56,147 nucleotides of DNA from a bacterium (GTDB lineage: Bacteria > JAMCPX01). Each line of letters begins with the position of its first letter. Position 1 is the stretch's first letter. A program made the position numbers and the translations under genes. The notes under the pieces are model-generated. The model was given only the letters and a program-made list of their open reading frames with translations. It was not told the DNA's origin and searched no databases. Below are positions 8,150 through 18,238 of this stretch, in pieces. The stretch lies in NCBI GenBank assembly GCA_021792615.1, contig JAJYUJ010000018.1:1-56147 (forward strand), written 5' to 3'.

Positions 8150-8538
8150 ATAAGCATTCTACAAATTAAAAGTACAAACGAGTTGATCGGGGTTGGTCCG
8201 CTAAAAACCAAATATTTTTTGTTCTTGGTAAGTTTCTATGCATGCACATTGCCTTCTTTATTTTTGCACGTATCCGGTTCTTCTGTCTTCGCTATGCCCC
8301 TTCCCTGTCATTCCCGCGAAAGCGGGAATCTAGGAAATAAATTCCCGGGAAAAGTTCTCTCAAGACTGAAAATGCAGGGGCTTGCCCATAGGGTAAGGAC
8401 TGGATTCCGTGTCAAGCACGGAATGACGAAATCAAGATTTTGCCCCTATCACTAAGAAAATGAAATCTTATCGAAAACGTTTACTATCGTTGAGAAAAGC
8501 AGAGAAACCGATTTTAATATCCCGCAACACTATTTCTG
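8150..8538. other. gene-free gap between rpmA and obgE
   Basis: No coding sequence is supported here. The plus-strand frame through it lacks a start with a ribosome-binding site and has no recognisable domain. The middle third is the GTCATTCC palindromic element listed separately; the rest is AT-rich unique sequence. No clear terminator follows rpmA, so transcription may run into obgE. Confidence 0.6.
8307..8427. repeat. GTCATTCC-family palindromic element (copy 1)
   Basis: The element starts GTCATTCCCGCGAAAGCGGG and ends CGTGTCAAGCACGGAATGAC, so its ends are inverted copies of GTCATTCC and each end is itself a hairpin. The layout, two palindromes in opposite orientation around a 70-base centre, resembles REP/BIME or MITE-like elements. 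Related copies are at 20013-20168 and 27493-27520. Confidence 0.75.
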
Positions 8539-9181: not shown

Positions 9182-9534
9182 GTGAATGCAGGAGTCTGTC
9201 ATTCAAACTCAAAAAGTGCTCAGGAGAACAATTAAAATGCTCTACTGGGGCATTCAGCGTGAAAGTCCTTTATAAGAAGATGACTGTTATGAAAAATAGT
9301 TATTCCCTCCCTTGACGGGAGGGATAAAGGGAGGGTGAATTTTGCCTTATATTTCACCCCCACCTATCATCCCCCGTCAAGGGGGAGGAAATTTTAGATG
9401 TGCACTTTTGAAATTTAGCCAACAGTGAATGCGGGAATCCATTCACTGCAACGGGTACTCCACGGGGAAAGTACCGTCATGGCACCCGAGATGAATAAGC
9501 GGTCTTTGGGGTTCGTCCTTCCCTTTGACTTTAA
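9182..9534. other. intergenic region between divergent rplU and SDR genes
   Basis: No gene is supported. The centre holds a CCCTCCC-type inverted-repeat element (9305-9390). The remainder is unique AT-rich sequence with no strong hairpin. Confidence 0.55.
9305..9390. repeat. CCCTCCC/TTGACGGGAGGG inverted-repeat element (copy 1)
   Basis: It begins CCCTCCCTTGACGGGAGGG and ends CCCCCGTCAAGGGGGAGG, with GGGAGGGTGAA and TTCACCC facing inward, so the whole unit of about 86 bases is a long imperfect palindrome. A second copy with the same layout is at 32776-32873, and fragments are at 13449-13494, 29360-29410 and 34058-34119. Confidence 0.7.
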
Positions 9535-9562
9535 AAATAACACCGTTATAATACTCCTATTC
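9535..9562 (+). promoter_or_regulatory. sigma-70-type promoter of the SDR/glycyl-radical-enzyme cluster
   Basis: TTGACT (9535-9540), 16 bases, then TATAAT (9557-9562). Transcription would start near 9569, leaving about 22 bases before the SDR ATG at 9592. This also rules out the in-frame TTG at 9565 as the start. Confidence 0.7.
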
Positions 9563-9591: not shown

Positions 9592-10374
9592 ATGAAATCA
9601 CTGTTGGGTAAAAAGATATTGGTTACCGGTGCTACAGGCGGGTTTGGCAGAGAATTTGCAAAACAACTCCATGGGTTGGGTGCGCATCTTATACTCAGCG
9701 GCCGCGACCAATCGAAACTCGACGACATTTCCGGCACCCTGGGTCCGTCACCCTCCGGGGGCAAGGTTATCGGCACGATCAAGGCAGACCTTTCGAACAG
9801 AGCAGGGTGCGAAGAGCTCTACGCCGGGTGTACGGCAATAACAACCGGGCTCGACGTTTTGATAAACAACGCAGGCATTATCGCGTACGGGGATTTTCAC
9901 CAGGTCCCCCTGGATACGTGGGAACGGCTTATGGAAACAAACCTGCTTGCGGCAATGCGCCTTACCTACCTGTTTCTTCCGGCCATGCTGAAAAGAAAAC
10001 AGGGGCATATTGTACTCATGTCATCCGTTGCAGGGTTTGTCGGTACCAGGAACAGTACGGCATATTCTGCCTCGAAGTTCGGTCTGCGTGGATTCGGCCT
10101 CTCCCTGTACGGTGAGGTGCATCCCAGTGGCATCGAGGTGACCATGCTCTATCCTTTCTGGGCCGACACGCCGATCCTCCAGTCGGAAGATTACGGCAGC
10201 AAATCCACGGGCAAGGTGATCCGGGCTGTTGTGGACAGGGCCGATGATGTCGTCAGAGAGTCGATAGCAGGGATACGGAAAAACAAGCTGTCCGTTTACC
10301 CGGGTCCGGTTGCGAAGGTACTGCACCTTGCAAACAAAGTCATCCAGATCAGGGGCAGCCAGCGGAAGGGCTAA
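9592..10374 (+). CDS. short-chain dehydrogenase/reductase (classical SDR)
   Basis: 260 residues. It is an NAD(P)-dependent oxidoreductase with a Rossmann fold: cofactor loop VTGATGGFG (Gly at 13, 17, 19), NNAG motif after the fourth strand, catalytic Ser in LMSSVAG and the YSASK catalytic Tyr/Lys pair. The family acts on hydroxyl or keto groups of sterols, fatty acyl chains, sugars and others; the sequence does not give the substrate. The ATG follows GAGGGGAAGGG. It is the first gene after a strong promoter and lies 46 bases before the glycyl-radical enzyme gene, so the two are probably co-transcribed and may act on the same hydrophobic substrate (inference). Confidence 0.88.
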   Translation: MKSLLGKKILVTGATGGFGREFAKQLHGLGAHLILSGRDQSKLDDISGTLGPSPSGGKVIGTIKADLSNRAGCEELYAGCTAITTGLDVLINNAGIIAYGDFHQVPLDTWERLMETNLLAAMRLTYLFLPAMLKRKQGHIVLMSSVAGFVGTRNSTAYSASKFGLRGFGLSLYGEVHPSGIEVTMLYPFWADTPILQSEDYGSKSTGKVIRAVVDRADDVVRESIAGIRKNKLSVYPGPVAKVLHLANKVIQIRGSQRKG

Positions 10375-10420
10375 GCATGGACGGACGCGGCATAGATACC
10401 ATGTTATCAGGAGGTACGGT

Positions 10421-13408
10421 ATGAAAAAAGAAGCAAAAAGATCCATCGTTTCGAATCCTTTGGTTTTGCAGAACATTATGTACGTGCTCCTGCAGGCCAT
10501 GTCATTGAAATTCACCTTCAGCAGGAAGTTCAGGGAAATGATTAAAAATGAGTACAATACGTTCAACAAGACAATCGCCATTCAGACGCGGGATAAATCC
10601 GTAAAGCTGTACATGGTCTTCCATAACGGCAAGATGAAGGTGCGGCACGGCATCCCTGAAAAAGCAGACCTCACCATCATCTACAAATCCCCGGAAATCA
10701 TCAGGGAATTTGCCACACTCTCGCCGGAAGACATGTTGAACTATCTGCTGACCAATAAGATTACTTTCAAGGGCAACCTGAGCTATCTTTCCAGGTTTGC
10801 GTACCTGCTGAACAACTTTATTCCGCCTAAAGCAGACAAAAAAGCGGCACCGGATGCAGCGGCAAAATCCGTGACTGCCAAAGCGGCGACCGGAGAAAAC
10901 ACTGCCCGGCTTATATCCCGTGCCGGCGAATTGACGGCACAAACCTCGGACAGGGTAATGTACCTTGGCGAGCCTTACCTGCAGAAATATACCATCGCAG
11001 ACTTCCCGGGTCTCGCAGCTCAGCGCGCCGCACACTTTACAGCGAAGCCTTCGATCTGTCCGGAGAGGCCTGAACTCATAACGCGATATTTCATGGAAAC
11101 CGGGTTCGAGCACGACCGGGACGGCAACAGGAGGCCGCCGGTACTCAGGCAGGCACAGGTACTCAACTATATTCTGAGCAACAAAAGGCCAATTATTCGC
11201 GCCAACAACATGCTTGCCGGGACCACGACATCGAGGGATGTCGGGGTCGTCATCTACCCTGAGGGACACGGCATTACGCTCTGGCCCGAATTGAAAACCA
11301 TAACAACAAGAAAAATCCAGCCTTATGGTATCGATGATTATACCGTAGAATTGCTGGACAAGAAGGTATTCCCGTTCTGGTCTGATCGCAACGTACGGGA
11401 ATACGCGCGCGCAACCAACAATTTCCCGAGATACCAGGAACTCGATGAAAAGTTCGTATTGTACTTTATGTGGAAGACCGTTGCCCTTTCTCACACAGTC
11501 CCGGATTTCCCGCGAATGCTGAAATACGGCATTATGCCGGTCATTGAAGATGCAGAAAAACGTAAGAATGCTGCGGGTGACGAACGGCAAAAAACATTTT
11601 ACCAGGCAACCGGGATCGCACTGCAGGGGGTACTCGACTATGCGGCTCATCTGAGAGAAGAAGCCGTGCGTCTGACGGCAAAAGCACAAAAACAGGGTGC
11701 GGACAACAGGACGGCGGAGCATTATAAAAGGTTTGCAGACATGCTGGAACAGGTGCCGGCACGCGGGGCACGCACACTGTACGAGGCCGTACAATCCCTC
11801 TGGATACTGTGGATTGCCCTTCACAATGAGAGTACGAATGCGGGTTTGTCACTCGGTCATCTGGATCTCTGGCTGCAGCCGTACTTTGAATCGGACATGG
11901 AGAAGCTGAAAACAGCGGCAGAAAAAGAAGCATACGTAAAGCAGGCAATAGAGCTCATCGGGAACTTCTTTTTCAAATGCCAGGATCACCTCCCGCTCGT
12001 TGCCGATATAGGCAACAAGCTCTTCGGGGGTTCATCCTCTGATCAGGCGATCACGCTCGGCGGCGTTGATGAAAACAATAACAGCGCGGTCAACGACATG
12101 ACCTACATTTTTCTGAAGGTTACGGAGATGCTCACGATGCGGGATCCCAACATGAATGCCCGCTACTATCCGGGCATCAACTCAGACACCTATTTGAGGA
12201 GGCTTGTCGAGGTGAACATGGTAACATCGGCAACCCCTTCCCTGCACAATGATAAGGCGATGATACAATCGCTGAAGAGTATCGGTTTTAAAGAAGAGGA
12301 TGCGCGGCAGTGGTGCGCAACAGGGTGTGTCGAGCCTACCATACCGGGCAAACACTTCGGCCATACAAACAGCATGATGTTCAACATGGTAGCAGCACTC
12401 GAGATGGCGCTCAACAACGGCGTCCATCCCCTTGCAGAAGAACAGATCGGCACAAAGACAGGCAGTATCGAGGAAGACGCCTTCCCCACCTTCGAAGACT
12501 TCTTCCATGCGTTCGAGGGACAATTGCGCTTCCTTGCGTACCAGACCATAGACTATAACAACAGCCTCGGTGCTGCACATCAGGTCATACGGCCGACGCC
12601 GACCCTCTCGTCCATGTTCGAAGGGCCCATGGAAAGTGCCAGGGATCTGACCGAGGGCGGGGCGCTGTACAACACATCAGGCGTCGCGTGTATCGGGCTG
12701 ACCGATATCGTCGACAGCCTTATGACGATAAAAAAGCTTGTTTACGATGAGAAGAAAACGGACTTCAAAACACTCCATAAAGCCATTGACAACAATTTCG
12801 AGGGTTACGGGAAGCTTCATACCATGATTCAAAACAAGGTTGCCAAGTTCGGTTCCGACAATCCGGAAGTAAACGGTCTTGCCCAGAGGGTCGTGGACAC
12901 GGTCTTCGACATATTTTACAACAGGACGAACTACAGGGGCGGGCATTATCTCGTAGGGTTCTGGAGTATGTCGAACCATGTTGCATTCGGTACGCTTTCG
13001 GGTGCCCTGCCGAGCGGAAGGCTGCAGTACAAACCGTTTACCCCGGGATTGACGCCGGAGAATGTTAAGGGCGTTGACCTGCTTTCGAGCATACGGACCA
13101 TAGCAGGGCTCAAGCCGGACAAGATGCCGAACAACATAGCGTTTAATGTGAAGGTAGCTCCGGACTCAAGGGATTCACACAAGGAAACCGTCGACCAGAT
13201 CACAGCGTACGCAAAATCCTACTTTGAGCTCGGGGGCATGCAGATGCAATTCAATATCGTAACCACGGAAACGTTGCAGGACGCCATGGAAAATCCGGAA
13301 AATTACAGGAACCTTCTGGTCCGTGTGTCCGGTTATAATGCCTACTTCGTGGAGCTGGATAAGGACCTTCAACTCGAGATCATCAACAGGCAGCAGATGA
13401 GGGTATGA
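10421..13408 (+). CDS. glycyl-radical enzyme (PFL-like) with N-terminal SCP2 lipid-carrier domain
   Basis: 995 residues. Residues about 35-133 match the SCP2 sterol-carrier pattern: a strand region VKLYMVFHNGKMKVRHG, then EKADLTIIYKSPE, LSPEDMLNYLLTNKITFKGN and LSYLSRFAYLL. An Ala/Lys-rich linker (135-162) joins a pyruvate-formate-lyase-like domain. The active-site thiyl Cys is C636 in ATGCVEPTIPG with E638 two residues on, the CxE arrangement found in eliminase and decarboxylase types (choline lyase, diol dehydratases, hydroxyphenylacetate decarboxylase). The radical Gly is G971 in RVSGYNAYF. The start is fixed by CAGGAGG before ATG 10421. Its activase follows in the same operon. The substrate is unknown; the carrier domain suggests something lipid- or sterol-like. 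The enzyme would be oxygen-sensitive and cytosolic. Confidence 0.9.
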   Translation: MKKEAKRSIVSNPLVLQNIMYVLLQAMSLKFTFSRKFREMIKNEYNTFNKTIAIQTRDKSVKLYMVFHNGKMKVRHGIPEKADLTIIYKSPEIIREFATLSPEDMLNYLLTNKITFKGNLSYLSRFAYLLNNFIPPKADKKAAPDAAAKSVTAKAATGENTARLISRAGELTAQTSDRVMYLGEPYLQKYTIADFPGLAAQRAAHFTAKPSICPERPELITRYFMETGFEHDRDGNRRPPVLRQAQVLNYILSNKRPIIRANNMLAGTTTSRDVGVVIYPEGHGITLWPELKTITTRKIQPYGIDDYTVELLDKKVFPFWSDRNVREYARATNNFPRYQELDEKFVLYFMWKTVALSHTVPDFPRMLKYGIMPVIEDAEKRKNAAGDERQKTFYQATGIALQGVLDYAAHLREEAVRLTAKAQKQGADNRTAEHYKRFADMLEQVPARGARTLYEAVQSLWILWIALHNESTNAGLSLGHLDLWLQPYFESDMEKLKTAAEKEAYVKQAIELIGNFFFKCQDHLPLVADIGNKLFGGSSSDQAITLGGVDENNNSAVNDMTYIFLKVTEMLTMRDPNMNARYYPGINSDTYLRRLVEVNMVTSATPSLHNDKAMIQSLKSIGFKEEDARQWCATGCVEPTIPGKHFGHTNSMMFNMVAALEMALNNGVHPLAEEQIGTKTGSIEEDAFPTFEDFFHAFEGQLRFLAYQTIDYNNSLGAAHQVIRPTPTLSSMFEGPMESARDLTEGGALYNTSGVACIGLTDIVDSLMTIKKLVYDEKKTDFKTLHKAIDNNFEGYGKLHTMIQNKVAKFGSDNPEVNGLAQRVVDTVFDIFYNRTNYRGGHYLVGFWSMSNHVAFGTLSGALPSGRLQYKPFTPGLTPENVKGVDLLSSIRTIAGLKPDKMPNNIAFNVKVAPDSRDSHKETVDQITAYAKSYFELGGMQMQFNIVTTETLQDAMENPENYRNLLVRVSGYNAYFVELDKDLQLEIINRQQMRV

Positions 13409-13448
13409 TATACACAGGGAATAAACTCCCGTGAGAGACAACAGGGTG

Positions 13449-13494
13449 TCAGAAATTCCCGGCCTCCCTTTTCGGGAGGGATACGGGGGAAGAT
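13449..13494. repeat. fragment of CCCTCCC-type repeat
   Basis: CCTCCCTTTTCGGGAGGGAT is one arm of the CCCTCCC repeat family, here lying between the glycyl-radical enzyme and its activase. It includes the GGGGGAAG that may serve as the activase ribosome-binding site. Confidence 0.55.
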
Positions 13495-13497
13495 GAA

Positions 13498-14430
13498 ATG
13501 AAACCTAACGCAATACCTGATAAAGAGCGGGCGGAAACACGGGCAAGGATCGTTGACCTCAAGAGAAATTCTCTTGACGACGGTCCCGGCATCCGCACCC
13601 TTATCTTTTTCAAGGGGTGTCCGCTCCGGTGTGTATGGTGCCACAACCCGGAGACGAAACATGCCTACGAGGAGCTTATGTTCGATGCGAAGGTATGCAT
13701 CTCCTGCGGCGATTGCGCACAAGCATGCAAAGAGCACGCCATAGACCTTGCGGATCCCCGGAGGATCGACAGGCAGGTCTGCACCAGATGCATGGACTGT
13801 GTGGAAGTATGCCCGTCCGGAGCACTCAAACGTGCGGGAAGACTTTATACGGTTGATGCATTATATTCGGAGATCATGAAAGACGAGCCTTTCTACAGGT
13901 ATTCTGCCGGAGGGGTGACGTTTTCCGGGGGAGAGCCTGCGGTATATATACATTTTATCTCGGAACTTTCCAGAAAACTCAAATCAGCGGGCATACATTT
14001 GAATATCGAAACATGCGGACTGTACAACCATGCATTGTTCGATAACCTTGTGCTCCCATACCTTGATATGATATTCTTCGACATAAAGTTTATAGACCCG
14101 GTACTGCATAAGCAGTATACAGGCAGCACAAACGGCATTATTATGCAAAATTTTCTGAGTTTACATTCAAAAAACAATATTCCGCTCATCCCGAGGGTAC
14201 CTCTTATACCGGGCATTACGGCAACAGAACAAAATCTCGCCTCCATAGCAGCGTTCTTAAGCGGGCAGGGAATAAAGAAGGTGGAGCTGCTCGCCTACAA
14301 CCCTCTATGGACGGATAAGTCTTACGGGCTGGGTCACGAACTGGATTATGACAGGAAAAAATTCATGGATAAAGGCGAAATAGTCAAGATAAAACAGATA
14401 TTTAGCAATTTCGATACCGGAAAATTTTAA
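13498..14430 (+). CDS. glycyl-radical enzyme activating protein (radical SAM)
   Basis: 310 residues. It reduces SAM to a 5-deoxyadenosyl radical and abstracts hydrogen from G971 of the neighbouring enzyme. The radical-SAM cluster motif CPLRCVWC gives C41, C45 and C48. Two ferredoxin-type clusters follow: C67-C70-C73-C77 and C95-C98-C101-C105, the insert typical of activases for non-PFL glycyl-radical enzymes such as BssD, CutD and HpdA. GVTFSGGEPAVY is the GGEP SAM-binding motif. The ATG is preceded by GGGGGAAG. Only 89 bases separate it from the enzyme gene, so co-transcription is likely. Confidence 0.94.
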   Translation: MKPNAIPDKERAETRARIVDLKRNSLDDGPGIRTLIFFKGCPLRCVWCHNPETKHAYEELMFDAKVCISCGDCAQACKEHAIDLADPRRIDRQVCTRCMDCVEVCPSGALKRAGRLYTVDALYSEIMKDEPFYRYSAGGVTFSGGEPAVYIHFISELSRKLKSAGIHLNIETCGLYNHALFDNLVLPYLDMIFFDIKFIDPVLHKQYTGSTNGIIMQNFLSLHSKNNIPLIPRVPLIPGITATEQNLASIAAFLSGQGIKKVELLAYNPLWTDKSYGLGHELDYDRKKFMDKGEIVKIKQIFSNFDTGKF

Positions 14431-14436
14431 ACCCCC

Positions 14437-14465
14437 TTGACTATTTAGAATTTAGTATATATAAT
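14437..14465 (+). promoter_or_regulatory. near-consensus sigma-70 promoter of rpoH
   Basis: TTGACT (14437-14442), 17 bases, TATAAT (14460-14465). Transcription would begin about 14472, 19 bases before the rpoH ATG, with AAAGGAGGAGG in the leader. The short leader argues against a long RNA thermometer of the E. coli rpoH kind. Confidence 0.8.
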
Positions 14466-14490: not shown

Positions 14491-15303
14491 ATGCAAATGG
14501 TTTTAAATGACAATCTAACAAAATACCTGGCGCAGATAGACAAGTATCCTCTTTTGACTCCACAGGAGGAAAAGAGACTTGCCATGCGGTACTATGAAAG
14601 AAAGGATATAAACTCAGCGCATAAACTGGTGACTTCCAACATGAGATTCGTCGTAAAGATAGCCCTTGAATACAGGCACTATAACGTCAAGCTGATGGAT
14701 TTGATTCAGGAGGGTAATTTAGGCCTGATGATGGCTGTCAAAAAATTCAATCCATACAAAGGGTTCAGGTTGATCTCCTATGCCGTATGGTGGATAAGGG
14801 CTTACATACAAAACTTCATCATGAAGACATGGAGCCTGGTGAAGATAGGAACAACACAGCTTCAGAGAAAGCTGTTCTACTCACTGAACAAGGTTCAGCC
14901 GGAAAACAATGCGGATATGCTCATTGACGAAACCAAGATAGAAAAAAAGGCCAAAGACTTTGAAAACCGCTTAAGATTAAGGGACGTTTCCCTTGATGTG
15001 ACGCTGGATGAGGAAAGCAGGGAATCCCATCTCGATCAACTCGTGGATGAAGACGAGAACCTTGAAGAGCGTATCAGCAAACAGGAAGAGGACACGGTCC
15101 TCAAACAGACCGTAGGCCAGGCAGTCAAGACCTTACCGGAAAGGGAACAATACATAATCAAGTTCAGGGTCATGGCAGACAACCCCCTTTCCCTTCAGGA
15201 GATAGGCGAGAAATACAACATTTCGAAAGAGCGCGTGCGCCAGCTCGAACAAAAGGCATTAGGCAAGCTGAAACACTCCATTGTTCCGGCAATAGCATCA
15301 TAA
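14491..15303 (+). CDS. rpoH: RNA polymerase sigma factor RpoH (sigma-32)
   Basis: 270 residues. It directs RNA polymerase to heat-shock promoters. Region 1.2/2 begins NLTKYLAQIDKYPLLTPQEE; region 2 contains KLMDLIQEGNLGLMMAVKKF and FRLISYAVWWIRAYIQ. The RpoH-specific segment WSLVKIGTTQLQRKLFYSL covers the RpoH box. Region 4 ends LQEIGEKYNISKERVRQLEQ. The start has a perfect AAAGGAGGAGG. It is monocistronic between its own promoter and terminator. A groEL gene lies about 16 kb away, without an obvious sigma-32 promoter in front of it. Confidence 0.93.
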   Translation: MQMVLNDNLTKYLAQIDKYPLLTPQEEKRLAMRYYERKDINSAHKLVTSNMRFVVKIALEYRHYNVKLMDLIQEGNLGLMMAVKKFNPYKGFRLISYAVWWIRAYIQNFIMKTWSLVKIGTTQLQRKLFYSLNKVQPENNADMLIDETKIEKKAKDFENRLRLRDVSLDVTLDEESRESHLDQLVDEDENLEERISKQEEDTVLKQTVGQAVKTLPEREQYIIKFRVMADNPLSLQEIGEKYNISKERVRQLEQKALGKLKHSIVPAIAS

Positions 15304-16169: not shown

Positions 16170-16427
16170 ATGCCGACATACGATTATGAGTGCACAGCAT
16201 GCGGATATAAATTTGAGATGTTACAGAAAATATCGGAAAAGCCCGTCACAACATGTCCAAAGTGCAAGGGCAAGGTTAAAAGGTTAATATCTGACAGCGG
16301 TTCGTTTATTTTAAAAGGCAGTGGCTGGTATGCCACGGATTATGTCAAGGACAATAAAACACAGACCCATGCGCAGAATAAAACAACGAATCAATCTGCA
16401 GACAAAACACCCGCCAGCAACAAATAA
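16170..16427 (+). CDS. FmdB-type zinc ribbon protein
   Basis: 85 residues. It begins [20 protein letters not shown] and has a second CPKC pair, giving the C8/C11 and C31/C34-type zinc ribbon of the FmdB/putative regulatory family. The tail ([11 protein letters not shown] then Thr/Asn/Lys/Gln) is low complexity, as is usual for the family. It is co-directional and 3 bases after the DUF167 gene. Confidence 0.9.
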
Positions 16428-17391
16428 CCGGAAACACAAGGCCCTTCTATTTCAGGAATATCTGTTCGTGCCTGTAGTACTCTTTTCGGCACTTTTCATC
16501 ATCGTAATCTTTCCGACGACCGGTTTTTGCTGGGGCCCCATGTCCCACATAGACCTTGCTACGGAAGTATTGAACTTCTCCCAACTGCTTGCACCGCAGG
16601 TTATGGAACTGATCAGGTCGTATCCTTATGACTTTCTTTACGGCAACATCGGCGCGGATATCGTTATAGGAAAGAACTTCACGAAGTACGAATACCATTG
16701 TCACAACTGGCTCGTGGGCAATCAGGTGTTCGAATCGGCAAAGAACGAGCACCAGAGGGCTTTTGCCTACGGTTATATAAGCCACCTTGCGTCGGACGTC
16801 ATCGCTCACAATTACTTTGTCCCGAATATGATCATAACCATGTACAGAAAAAAAATGTTCCTTCACTCGTACTGGGAAATCCGCTTTGACAGGCTGGTGA
16901 ACGATAAGGCCGTAAAAACCATAGAAAGGACACTGAAACTGAGACACAAGGATGACAATGACCTGCTCAAACATACCCTTGAAAAAACGCTGTTTTCTTT
17001 CTCCACGAACAAGAATATCTTTAACAGCGTGATGCAGGTCAACAAGAGGAAACTGCTCAGAAACCTTTTCAAAGGGTTGACCTCCGAAAAAAAATGGCTT
17101 TTTTCGATTGATCAATTCGATACGTACAAACATTATTCCATCGATGCTATTTTTGATGTACTCAACAAGGGGAACGAGTCAATTTATACGCAGTTCGACC
17201 CAACCGGCATAGAGGTTATTCACATCGCTTCCCAGGTGAGGAAGGAACTCAACAGGCTGCACCGCAAACAGAAGTTATCCGAGCATGACATGCAGAATAT
17301 AACACACAGTATACTGCCCGAGTTTCCCCCTGGTTTATATTCGGAATATGCCCCGGCGGTTCATCAAAAGAGCGGAAGGAGCGGGGGATAA
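16369..17391 (+). CDS. zinc-dependent phospholipase C-like protein with N-terminal membrane segment
   Basis: About 340 residues. A hydrophobic stretch ([17 protein letters not shown]) is followed at once by [15 protein letters not shown], the W-G-x-x-x-H N-terminal motif of pfam00882 zinc phospholipase C-like proteins, whose Trp normally becomes a metal ligand after signal cleavage. Other candidate ligands are [11 protein letters not shown]-like [15 protein letters not shown] and [17 protein letters not shown] (His and Asp positions). The start is uncertain: ATG 16369 overlaps fmdB by 59 bases and has no ribosome-binding site; 16321 is further upstream. Cleavage before the Trp or anchoring are both possible. 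The substrate may be a membrane phospholipid, but this is only a family-level guess. Confidence 0.72.
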
Positions 17392-17590
17392 GCAGCAGAG
17401 AGAAAGGAGACGGGGGAAAACGTCAACAACTCCCCGTCGCAGGGAATGAAGATCGTCACTCTCGGTTCTTAATTTTAAATTTTTAATGTTGGACTTCTTC
17501 CGACATCGCGCTCTTCGGTGTCATTCCTCTTTCGATAAGAGTAATAAAAAGGAGTTATGAATTGAGAACATCCGTCCTGACAGGCGAATT

Positions 17591-18238
17591 ATGACAAAGC
17601 AAGCGAATAGAGATATAAAACGAATTTTATGTTACCGGCTTTCGCTTCTCATGGTTCTTCTGGTATCCGCGGTTGCCCTGACCGTACTGATTGAGGCGGG
17701 TAAAACGGACGCATTCGACGCTTTTATTACAGGCATTATCCAGCACAACAAATCACGCACCATGCAAATCCTCATGGAAATGGTTACGTTTACCGGCACC
17801 GCGTACGGTGTCATACTTATTCTGGCAGGCATCGGTATCTGGTTATGGCGCCGCAGGGCATTTTCTGTATTGAAAGATTTGTTGGGCATATCGCTTTTCA
17901 GTTTTATAACGGAGGTTTCGGTCAAAGAGCTGGTACACAGGTCACGGCCTTCAAGCTGGCTTGGAATAACCGCGCCGGGATATTCTTTCCCGAGCGGTCA
18001 CTCCATCATGGTCTTCGTAATAGCCGTTGAGCTTATCATCATCCTGCACAGGTTTGGCCGTGCCCGATGGTGGATGGTGACGGCGCTCCTTTGCATTGCC
18101 GCAGCAGTAGGCATGAGCCGCATATACCTCGGGGTCCATTGGCCTACGGATGTCCTCGGGAGCTGGCTTATGGGATCGATTATCATAACTGCAGTGAACA
18201 TTGTCGATATTGAAGAACCTCGTCGTAAACGACAATGA
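17591..18238 (+). CDS. PAP2-family membrane phosphatase
   Basis: 215 residues with about six membrane segments. The PAP2 catalytic motifs are KELVHRSRP, PSGHS and SRIYLGVHWPTD. Such enzymes remove phosphate from lipids such as undecaprenyl diphosphate or phosphatidate. ATG 17591 lacks a ribosome-binding site. A strong AAAAAGGAG at 17546-17554 lies six bases before an in-frame ATT (17561), which would add ten residues. That ATG overlaps a tiny ATG-AAT-TGA frame. The correct start is therefore open. The gene is monocistronic by appearance and followed by a convergent gene. Confidence 0.9.
   Translation: MTKQANRDIKRILCYRLSLLMVLLVSAVALTVLIEAGKTDAFDAFITGIIQHNKSRTMQILMEMVTFTGTAYGVILILAGIGIWLWRRRAFSVLKDLLGISLFSFITEVSVKELVHRSRPSSWLGITAPGYSFPSGHSIMVFVIAVELIIILHRFGRARWWMVTALLCIAAAVGMSRIYLGVHWPTDVLGSWLMGSIIITAVNIVDIEEPRRKRQ

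Follow-up and report, generated by a model that had tools for sequence, protein, structure and literature searches.

A gene run in the window (the whole contig JAJYUJ010000018.1, 56,147 nucleotides) raises the question of why a glycyl-radical enzyme (GRE) should carry an SCP2-type lipid-carrier domain, and on what kind of substrate such an enzyme would act. According to the original prediction, the SCP2 domain would capture a hydrophobic substrate and feed it to the radical site. The features of the locus are collated in Table 1.

Table 1. Features of the SCP2-GRE locus (window coordinates) and the basis of each assignment.
Feature	Position	Strand	Basis
Putative sigma-70-type promoter, TTGACT-16-TATAAT	9525–9552	+	11/12 consensus match
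SDR, 260 aa	9592–10374	+	adh_short E=1e-47; PRK06181 149.6 bits; GATGGFG and YSASK motifs
SCP2-GRE, 995-aa glycyl-radical enzyme	10421–13408	+	ATG at 10421, stop at 13408; Pfam PFL-like, Gly_radical and SCP2
SCP2 domain, residues ca. 13–133 (Pfam stretch 46–130)	10457–10819	+	PF02036 24.2 bits for the isolated domain; AF2 model and Foldseek match to SCP2 folds
Linker, Ala/Lys/Pro-rich, residues ca. 134–186	10820–10978	+	Composition; pLDDT 26–45 over ca. 135–176, mostly disordered by prediction
PFL-like domain, residues 206–857	11036–12991	+	PF02901 E=2e-156
H358, equivalent of the HypD His160/CutC Asp216 position	11492–11494	+	Invariant, 55/55 members
Cys loop C636-V637-E638 (CXE motif)	12326–12334	+	Invariant, 55/55 members
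Gly_radical domain with G971 (RVSGYNAYF; G971 codon 13331–13333)	13043–13351	+	PF01228 E=7e-23; S970-G971 invariant
GRE activase, radical SAM with two extra 4Fe-4S motifs	13498–14430	+	TIGR02494 285 bits (cut-off 174); Cys positions

The predicted three-gene layout, with the SDR gene 5′ and the activase gene 3′ of the GRE gene, was recovered with all genes on one strand (gaps of 46, 89 and 60 bp along the gene run, the first two separating these three genes). In the SDR the GATGGFG and Y158xxxK motifs are present, and PRK06181 is the best NCBIfam model, with a score below its cut-off. The activase, for which two extra clusters had been proposed, contains CxxxCxxC (C41/45/48) and eight additional cysteines in two ferredoxin-like motifs (C67–C105). 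The near-consensus promoter ahead of the genes does match at 11 of 12 positions, but such sites are no commoner in the region than in shuffles (5 observed, 6.4 in shuffles), and the assignment is no more than a plausible guess. A gene for a sigma-70-family factor (270 aa, 14491–15303) lies 3′ of the activase gene both here and in L009, L010 and L011, and has its own 11/12 promoter-like site (14437–14465). About 2 kb downstream, outside the direct gene run, zinc-dependent phospholipase C-like and PAP2 phosphatase genes were observed (16321–18238); similar-looking genes are also found downstream in L010, and a role in lipid metabolism might be considered for the pair.

The SCP2 assignment was tested by profile and by fold. 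With Pfam, the whole protein gave an SCP2 match slightly below the cut-off of 21.3 bits (19.6 bits, E=0.0012), and the isolated N-terminal 140 residues gave one above it (24.2 bits, E=4.4e-5); a profile match at E≤0.01 was obtained for 30 of 70 N-terminal domains of the family. Alignments of the N-terminal domain against the PDB by sequence profile yielded nothing significant (SCP2 entries at E of about 0.4 only), and a fold search was therefore needed. When an AlphaFold model of the domain (70 sequences, pLDDT 83.2, pTM 0.77) was submitted to Foldseek, SCP2 folds alone were returned at E≤0.001. The best match was UbiJ-SCP2 (6h6p, E=4e-7, TM 0.70 on target); the others were A. fulgidus AF1534, human and yeast SCP2 and the SCP2-like domain of SdsA1/Pisa1. 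By profile and by fold the N-terminal region is thus an SCP2 domain, as proposed, and the proposed C-terminal limit at residue 133 was retained, whereas the start was moved by the fold comparison from residue 35 to about 13. The first helix of the domain is hydrophobic. The linker of about 50 residues that follows, predicted to be disordered, is as expected for a mobile arm. Built from 13 sequences, the model of the whole protein (pLDDT 70.8) carries no information on domain docking or on a channel. In a close relative (L009, the same gene as L005; G005), a single in-frame TGA (8463–8465) was observed in the SCP2–GRE linker, and the next ATG, GTG or TTG of the frame comes at about residue 225; an assembly error, a pseudogene or recoding are all possible.

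The search for proteins combining SCP2, PFL-like and Gly_radical domains, which had been suggested as a check, returned many of them across phyla, and the window enzyme belongs to a broad family rather than standing alone. Homologues of the whole architecture (44–89% identity in a first set) were found in the window's own small phylum, Bacillota, Desulfovibrio- and Desulfoluna-labelled genomes, Caldilineales, Lokiarchaeota and Lachnospiraceae. In the Desulfoluna class, 75 of 291 genomes matched the N-domain profile (A2) and, by our own count, about 50 contain a fused ORF of about 850–1,080 aa; in the Asgard phylum, the corresponding numbers are 26 of 196 genomes and about 24. The family is rare in the sampled Clostridia and Chloroflexota (1 of 251 genomes in the latter). 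Plasmid records contain GREs, none with SCP2 among the matches listed (alignments start at residue 198 or later). Several sulfate reducers carry 2–4 paralogues, and since a sequenced isolate, Desulfoluna limicola, is among them (four fused copies and one stand-alone SCP2 copy), the family is accessible to direct experiment. Tandem pairs and a triple of SCP2-GRE genes were observed in L074, L075 and L076; the first two of these loci have one activase gene in between, and in the third no activase gene was seen. The window's genome itself has a second, distantly related GRE with GCIE instead of GCVE (G000:C31:22869–24971; L002).

A second architecture was found in which SCP2 is encoded separately. 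In 19 intact loci, a GRE of about 810–865 aa is followed directly by an SCP2 gene and usually then by the activase gene; these GREs have no N-terminal domain (alignment to the window protein starts at residue 180 or later), and about 25 matches to stand-alone SCP2 proteins of 135–230 aa were obtained. In L103, L104, L106 and L109 the SCP2 gene also adjoins the GRE gene and is overlapped by a longer ORF on the opposite strand. Since fused and split forms both occur, SCP2 is a regular partner of this GRE, either by fusion or as an operon gene, and this fusion and fission is the strongest evidence that SCP2 matters to the enzyme. A DUF6765 protein is encoded next to the split GRE-SCP2 operon in seven loci (L086, L092, L095, L101, L103, L105 and L106).

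Membership in the GRE superfamily follows from the PFL-like barrel, the Gly_radical domain, the radical glycine and Cys loop, and the radical-SAM activase. The predicted C636 (in GCVEP) and G971 (in RVSGYNAYF) were located at these positions, with E638 beside the cysteine, and C636, E638, H358, S970-G971 and W848 are invariant in all 55 family members aligned. The CXE motif in 55 of 55 members and the best structural matches, which are eliminases, place the family among the GRE eliminases in the broad sense. HypD depends on the Glu of its CXE motif and on His160, both essential, and for other eliminases this Glu, tuned by the His, is regarded as the base in ketyl-radical formation (PMC7077986); the roles of the HypD His160/CutC Asp216 position are described in PMC7077986 and PMC8473560. 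The contacts to small substrates are replaced: the position of HypD D278 is occupied by A, V, T, M or I across all 55 members, that of HypD Y450/CutC Y506 by M, L, S or I (F once), and that of HypD F340/CutC F395/GDH Y339 (a numbering offset from the published Ser334/Phe389/Phe333 equivalence) is never aromatic. Judged from these residues, the catalytic centre of the eliminases is kept and the pocket remade, which is compatible with a larger, less polar substrate and is no proof of one. Small polar molecules enclosed within a sealed barrel are the substrates of the known GRE eliminases.

A maximum-likelihood tree built from 96 GREs joins the fused group (SH-aLRT 100) and the split group (99) as sisters in one clade (100). 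Closest to this clade among the sequences sampled are A. fulgidus PFL2 (2f3o) and a GRE from an Acinetobacter plasmid (SH-aLRT 99); GDH, CutC, HypD, YbiW and PflB fall outside. The separation from characterised families is shown by the tree for CutC, HypD and GDH, the tree having been built without BssA, HPAD, IslA, IAD, PhdB and HpsG; by score ranking, BssA, HPAD and IslA are further off. No NCBIfam equivalog cut-off was reached (CutC 372/1050, HypD 371/1100 and HpsG 341/1000 bits). The characterised eliminases were accordingly rejected as identities, CutC, HypD and HpsG/HpfG by score and GDH and PD by the replaced contact residues, as was an ordinary diol dehydratase on scores and residues together; pyruvate formate-lyase was ruled out by TIGR01255 (123/994 bits). 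The closest structures are HypD, GDH, propanediol dehydratase, CutC and 2f3o, the last of unknown function. Among the nearest relatives without SCP2, a GRE with its activase was observed on Acinetobacter and Moraxella plasmids (L116, Acinetobacter towneri plasmid), that is, in genera usually held to be aerobes.

The neighbourhoods of 72 fused loci, some of which end at contig ends, contain an activase gene at most four ORFs away in 45 cases and a TetR regulator in 35. An SDR gene is present in 16 of the 72 (and in L009 and L089); these neighbour counts are raw and uncorrected for background, and SDRs, like aldehyde:ferredoxin oxidoreductases (AORs), are common genes. For the classical SDRs, PRK06181 ranks first or near the top of the NCBIfam models, as for the SDR of the window; extended SDRs, at times fused to a classical one, are OleD-, HpnA- or 3beta-HSD-like. 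The SDR as a functional partner fared in two ways: it recurs near distant members, but in the window's family it is limited to the genus, and it is not obligatory. Within the genus, the linkage is found in a second species (L009), and in a third the SDR gene ends one contig and the GRE gene begins another; a different genus of the family has its SDR orthologue at an unlinked site, and there the GRE gene is preceded by a gene for a hydrolase_4 protein (monoacylglycerol-lipase type). AMP-forming acyl-CoA ligases and enoyl-CoA hydratases are further repeated neighbours. The Asgard loci encode a divergent FAD enzyme resembling carotenoid isomerase and phytoene desaturase together with a PaaE-like reductase, and an AOR (clusters of 8–9 members in 20 loci); in L213–L216, L218, L221 and L224 the FAD enzyme and reductase genes were observed beside the SCP2-GRE gene, often with an AOR gene. 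An aldehyde-oxidising neighbour fits an elimination product. With 19 acyl-CoA dehydrogenase and 7 SCP2 matches, lipid metabolism is prominent in the window's genome. The neighbour sets vary among subclades, and the substrates therefore probably differ between them.

Taken together, the enzyme is rather probably a radical lyase acting on a hydrophobic, presumably hydroxylated substrate that is captured by the flexibly tethered SCP2 domain, with SCP2 as the standing partner in a distinct GRE clade. The reading that needs the fewest assumptions is a hydrophobic substrate, since SCP2 accompanies the enzyme throughout, fused or encoded next to it, and redox genes of the lipid type are found repeatedly in the vicinity; the patchy SDR linkage counts against the explanation. 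In the proposed mechanism, the activase would generate the radical on G971, and SCP2 (a flexible arm here, a free subunit in the sister clade) would bind a poorly soluble or membrane-embedded substrate and hand it to the barrel. The thiyl radical of C636 would take a hydrogen atom next to a hydroxyl group, E638, tuned by H358, would accept a proton to give a ketyl radical, and departure of the neighbouring group would leave an aldehyde or ketone, which SDRs or, in the Asgard loci, the AOR could process.

Three other readings were weighed against this one. SCP2 might have a structural or regulatory role, serving to tether the enzyme to a membrane or a protein, to dock the activase or to shield against oxygen, on a barrel that acts on an ordinary soluble substrate. 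UbiJ-SCP2, the closest fold match, is not only a lipid binder but also a scaffold, and both the hydrophobic first helix and the position of the split SCP2 gene between the GRE and activase genes would suit such a role; the other close fold matches, however, are carriers with a ligand bound and SdsA1 carrying alkyl ligands, no member keeps the small-substrate contacts in its barrel, and lipid-type redox neighbours recur, so that we regard this reading as unlikely, though the least so of the three. Chemistry other than elimination, such as radical decarboxylation of a hydrophobic carboxylic acid, is less probable still. Indoleacetate decarboxylase also has a Cys-x-Glu motif (Cys500/Glu502; PMC6181972), so the motif alone is no proof of elimination, and some members have acyl-CoA ligase, CoA-transferase-like and enoyl-CoA hydratase genes in their vicinity. 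Against it, the decarboxylase models score lower (IAD 267, HPAD 191 bits) than CutC and HypD (about 371), and HPAD ranks well below the eliminases by fold and in the PDB search; the tree does not contain decarboxylases.

A hydrocarbon-activating fumarate addition of the X-succinate synthase type would go with abundance in sulfate reducers and with a hydrophobic partner domain. BssA (148 bits) and MasD (178 bits) nevertheless score far below 2f3o (373 bits), their folds rank lower, CXE and the H358 position are of the eliminase type, and no recurrent BssB/BssC-like small-subunit gene was seen in the sampled neighbourhoods, inspected without profiles and without systematic coverage of short ORFs; this reading is very improbable. 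The carrier-fed radical lyase is thus the preferred explanation. Its substrates can be named by speculation (alkylglycerol ethers, long-chain diols, hopanoids or steroids, isoprenoids), and the family probably degrades greasy molecules without oxygen. As a more tentative proposal, which we hold to be possible and not the likelier outcome, it would be a new class of radical enzyme for anaerobic lipid processing, in which a carrier feeds a glycyl-radical lyase that attacks isoprenoid or membrane-type lipids, such as ether lipids (at their glycerol or hydroxylated part), long-chain diols, hopanoids or steroids, and it would be common to sulfate reducers, the poorly known phylum of the window and Asgard archaea.

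The claim that no GRE with such a domain has been described agrees with a text search across 5.39 million open-access papers, in which no GRE with an SCP2 or sterol-carrier domain was found; recent papers on limonene and benzene activation concern other enzymes. The family is large and apparently undescribed, in sulfate reducers as well as Asgard archaea, and what is new is the GRE clade with its partner module, not the catalytic principle. If the preferred explanation is true, GRE-eliminase chemistry would be extended to hydrophobic substrates by means of a constant lipid-carrier partner, and part of the oxygen-free degradation or remodelling of lipids by anaerobic microbes of sediments, some of them related to the ancestor of eukaryotes, could be explained.

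Among known systems, A. fulgidus PFL2 (2f3o) is the best PDB sequence match, belongs to the nearest tree group and shares the GCVE Cys loop, but its solved chain (776 aa) is without SCP2 and the match begins at query residue 236. Glycerol and propanediol dehydratases, CutC and HypD share the barrel (TM on target of about 0.8), CXE, the His at the HypD His160/GDH position and the activase; the solved eliminase chains, in contrast, lack SCP2, their contacts are replaced in all 55 members, and NCBIfam scores amount to about one third of the cut-offs. UbiJ-SCP2 resembles the N-terminal domain most closely in fold but is part of a ubiquinone biosynthesis complex without a GRE. The alkylsulfatases SdsA1 and Pisa1 also combine an enzyme with an SCP2-fold domain (fold match E of about 1e-4), which has been proposed to recruit alkyl chains; unlike the SCP2-GRE, they are non-radical sulfatases of the metallo-beta-lactamase type and carry this domain at the C terminus.
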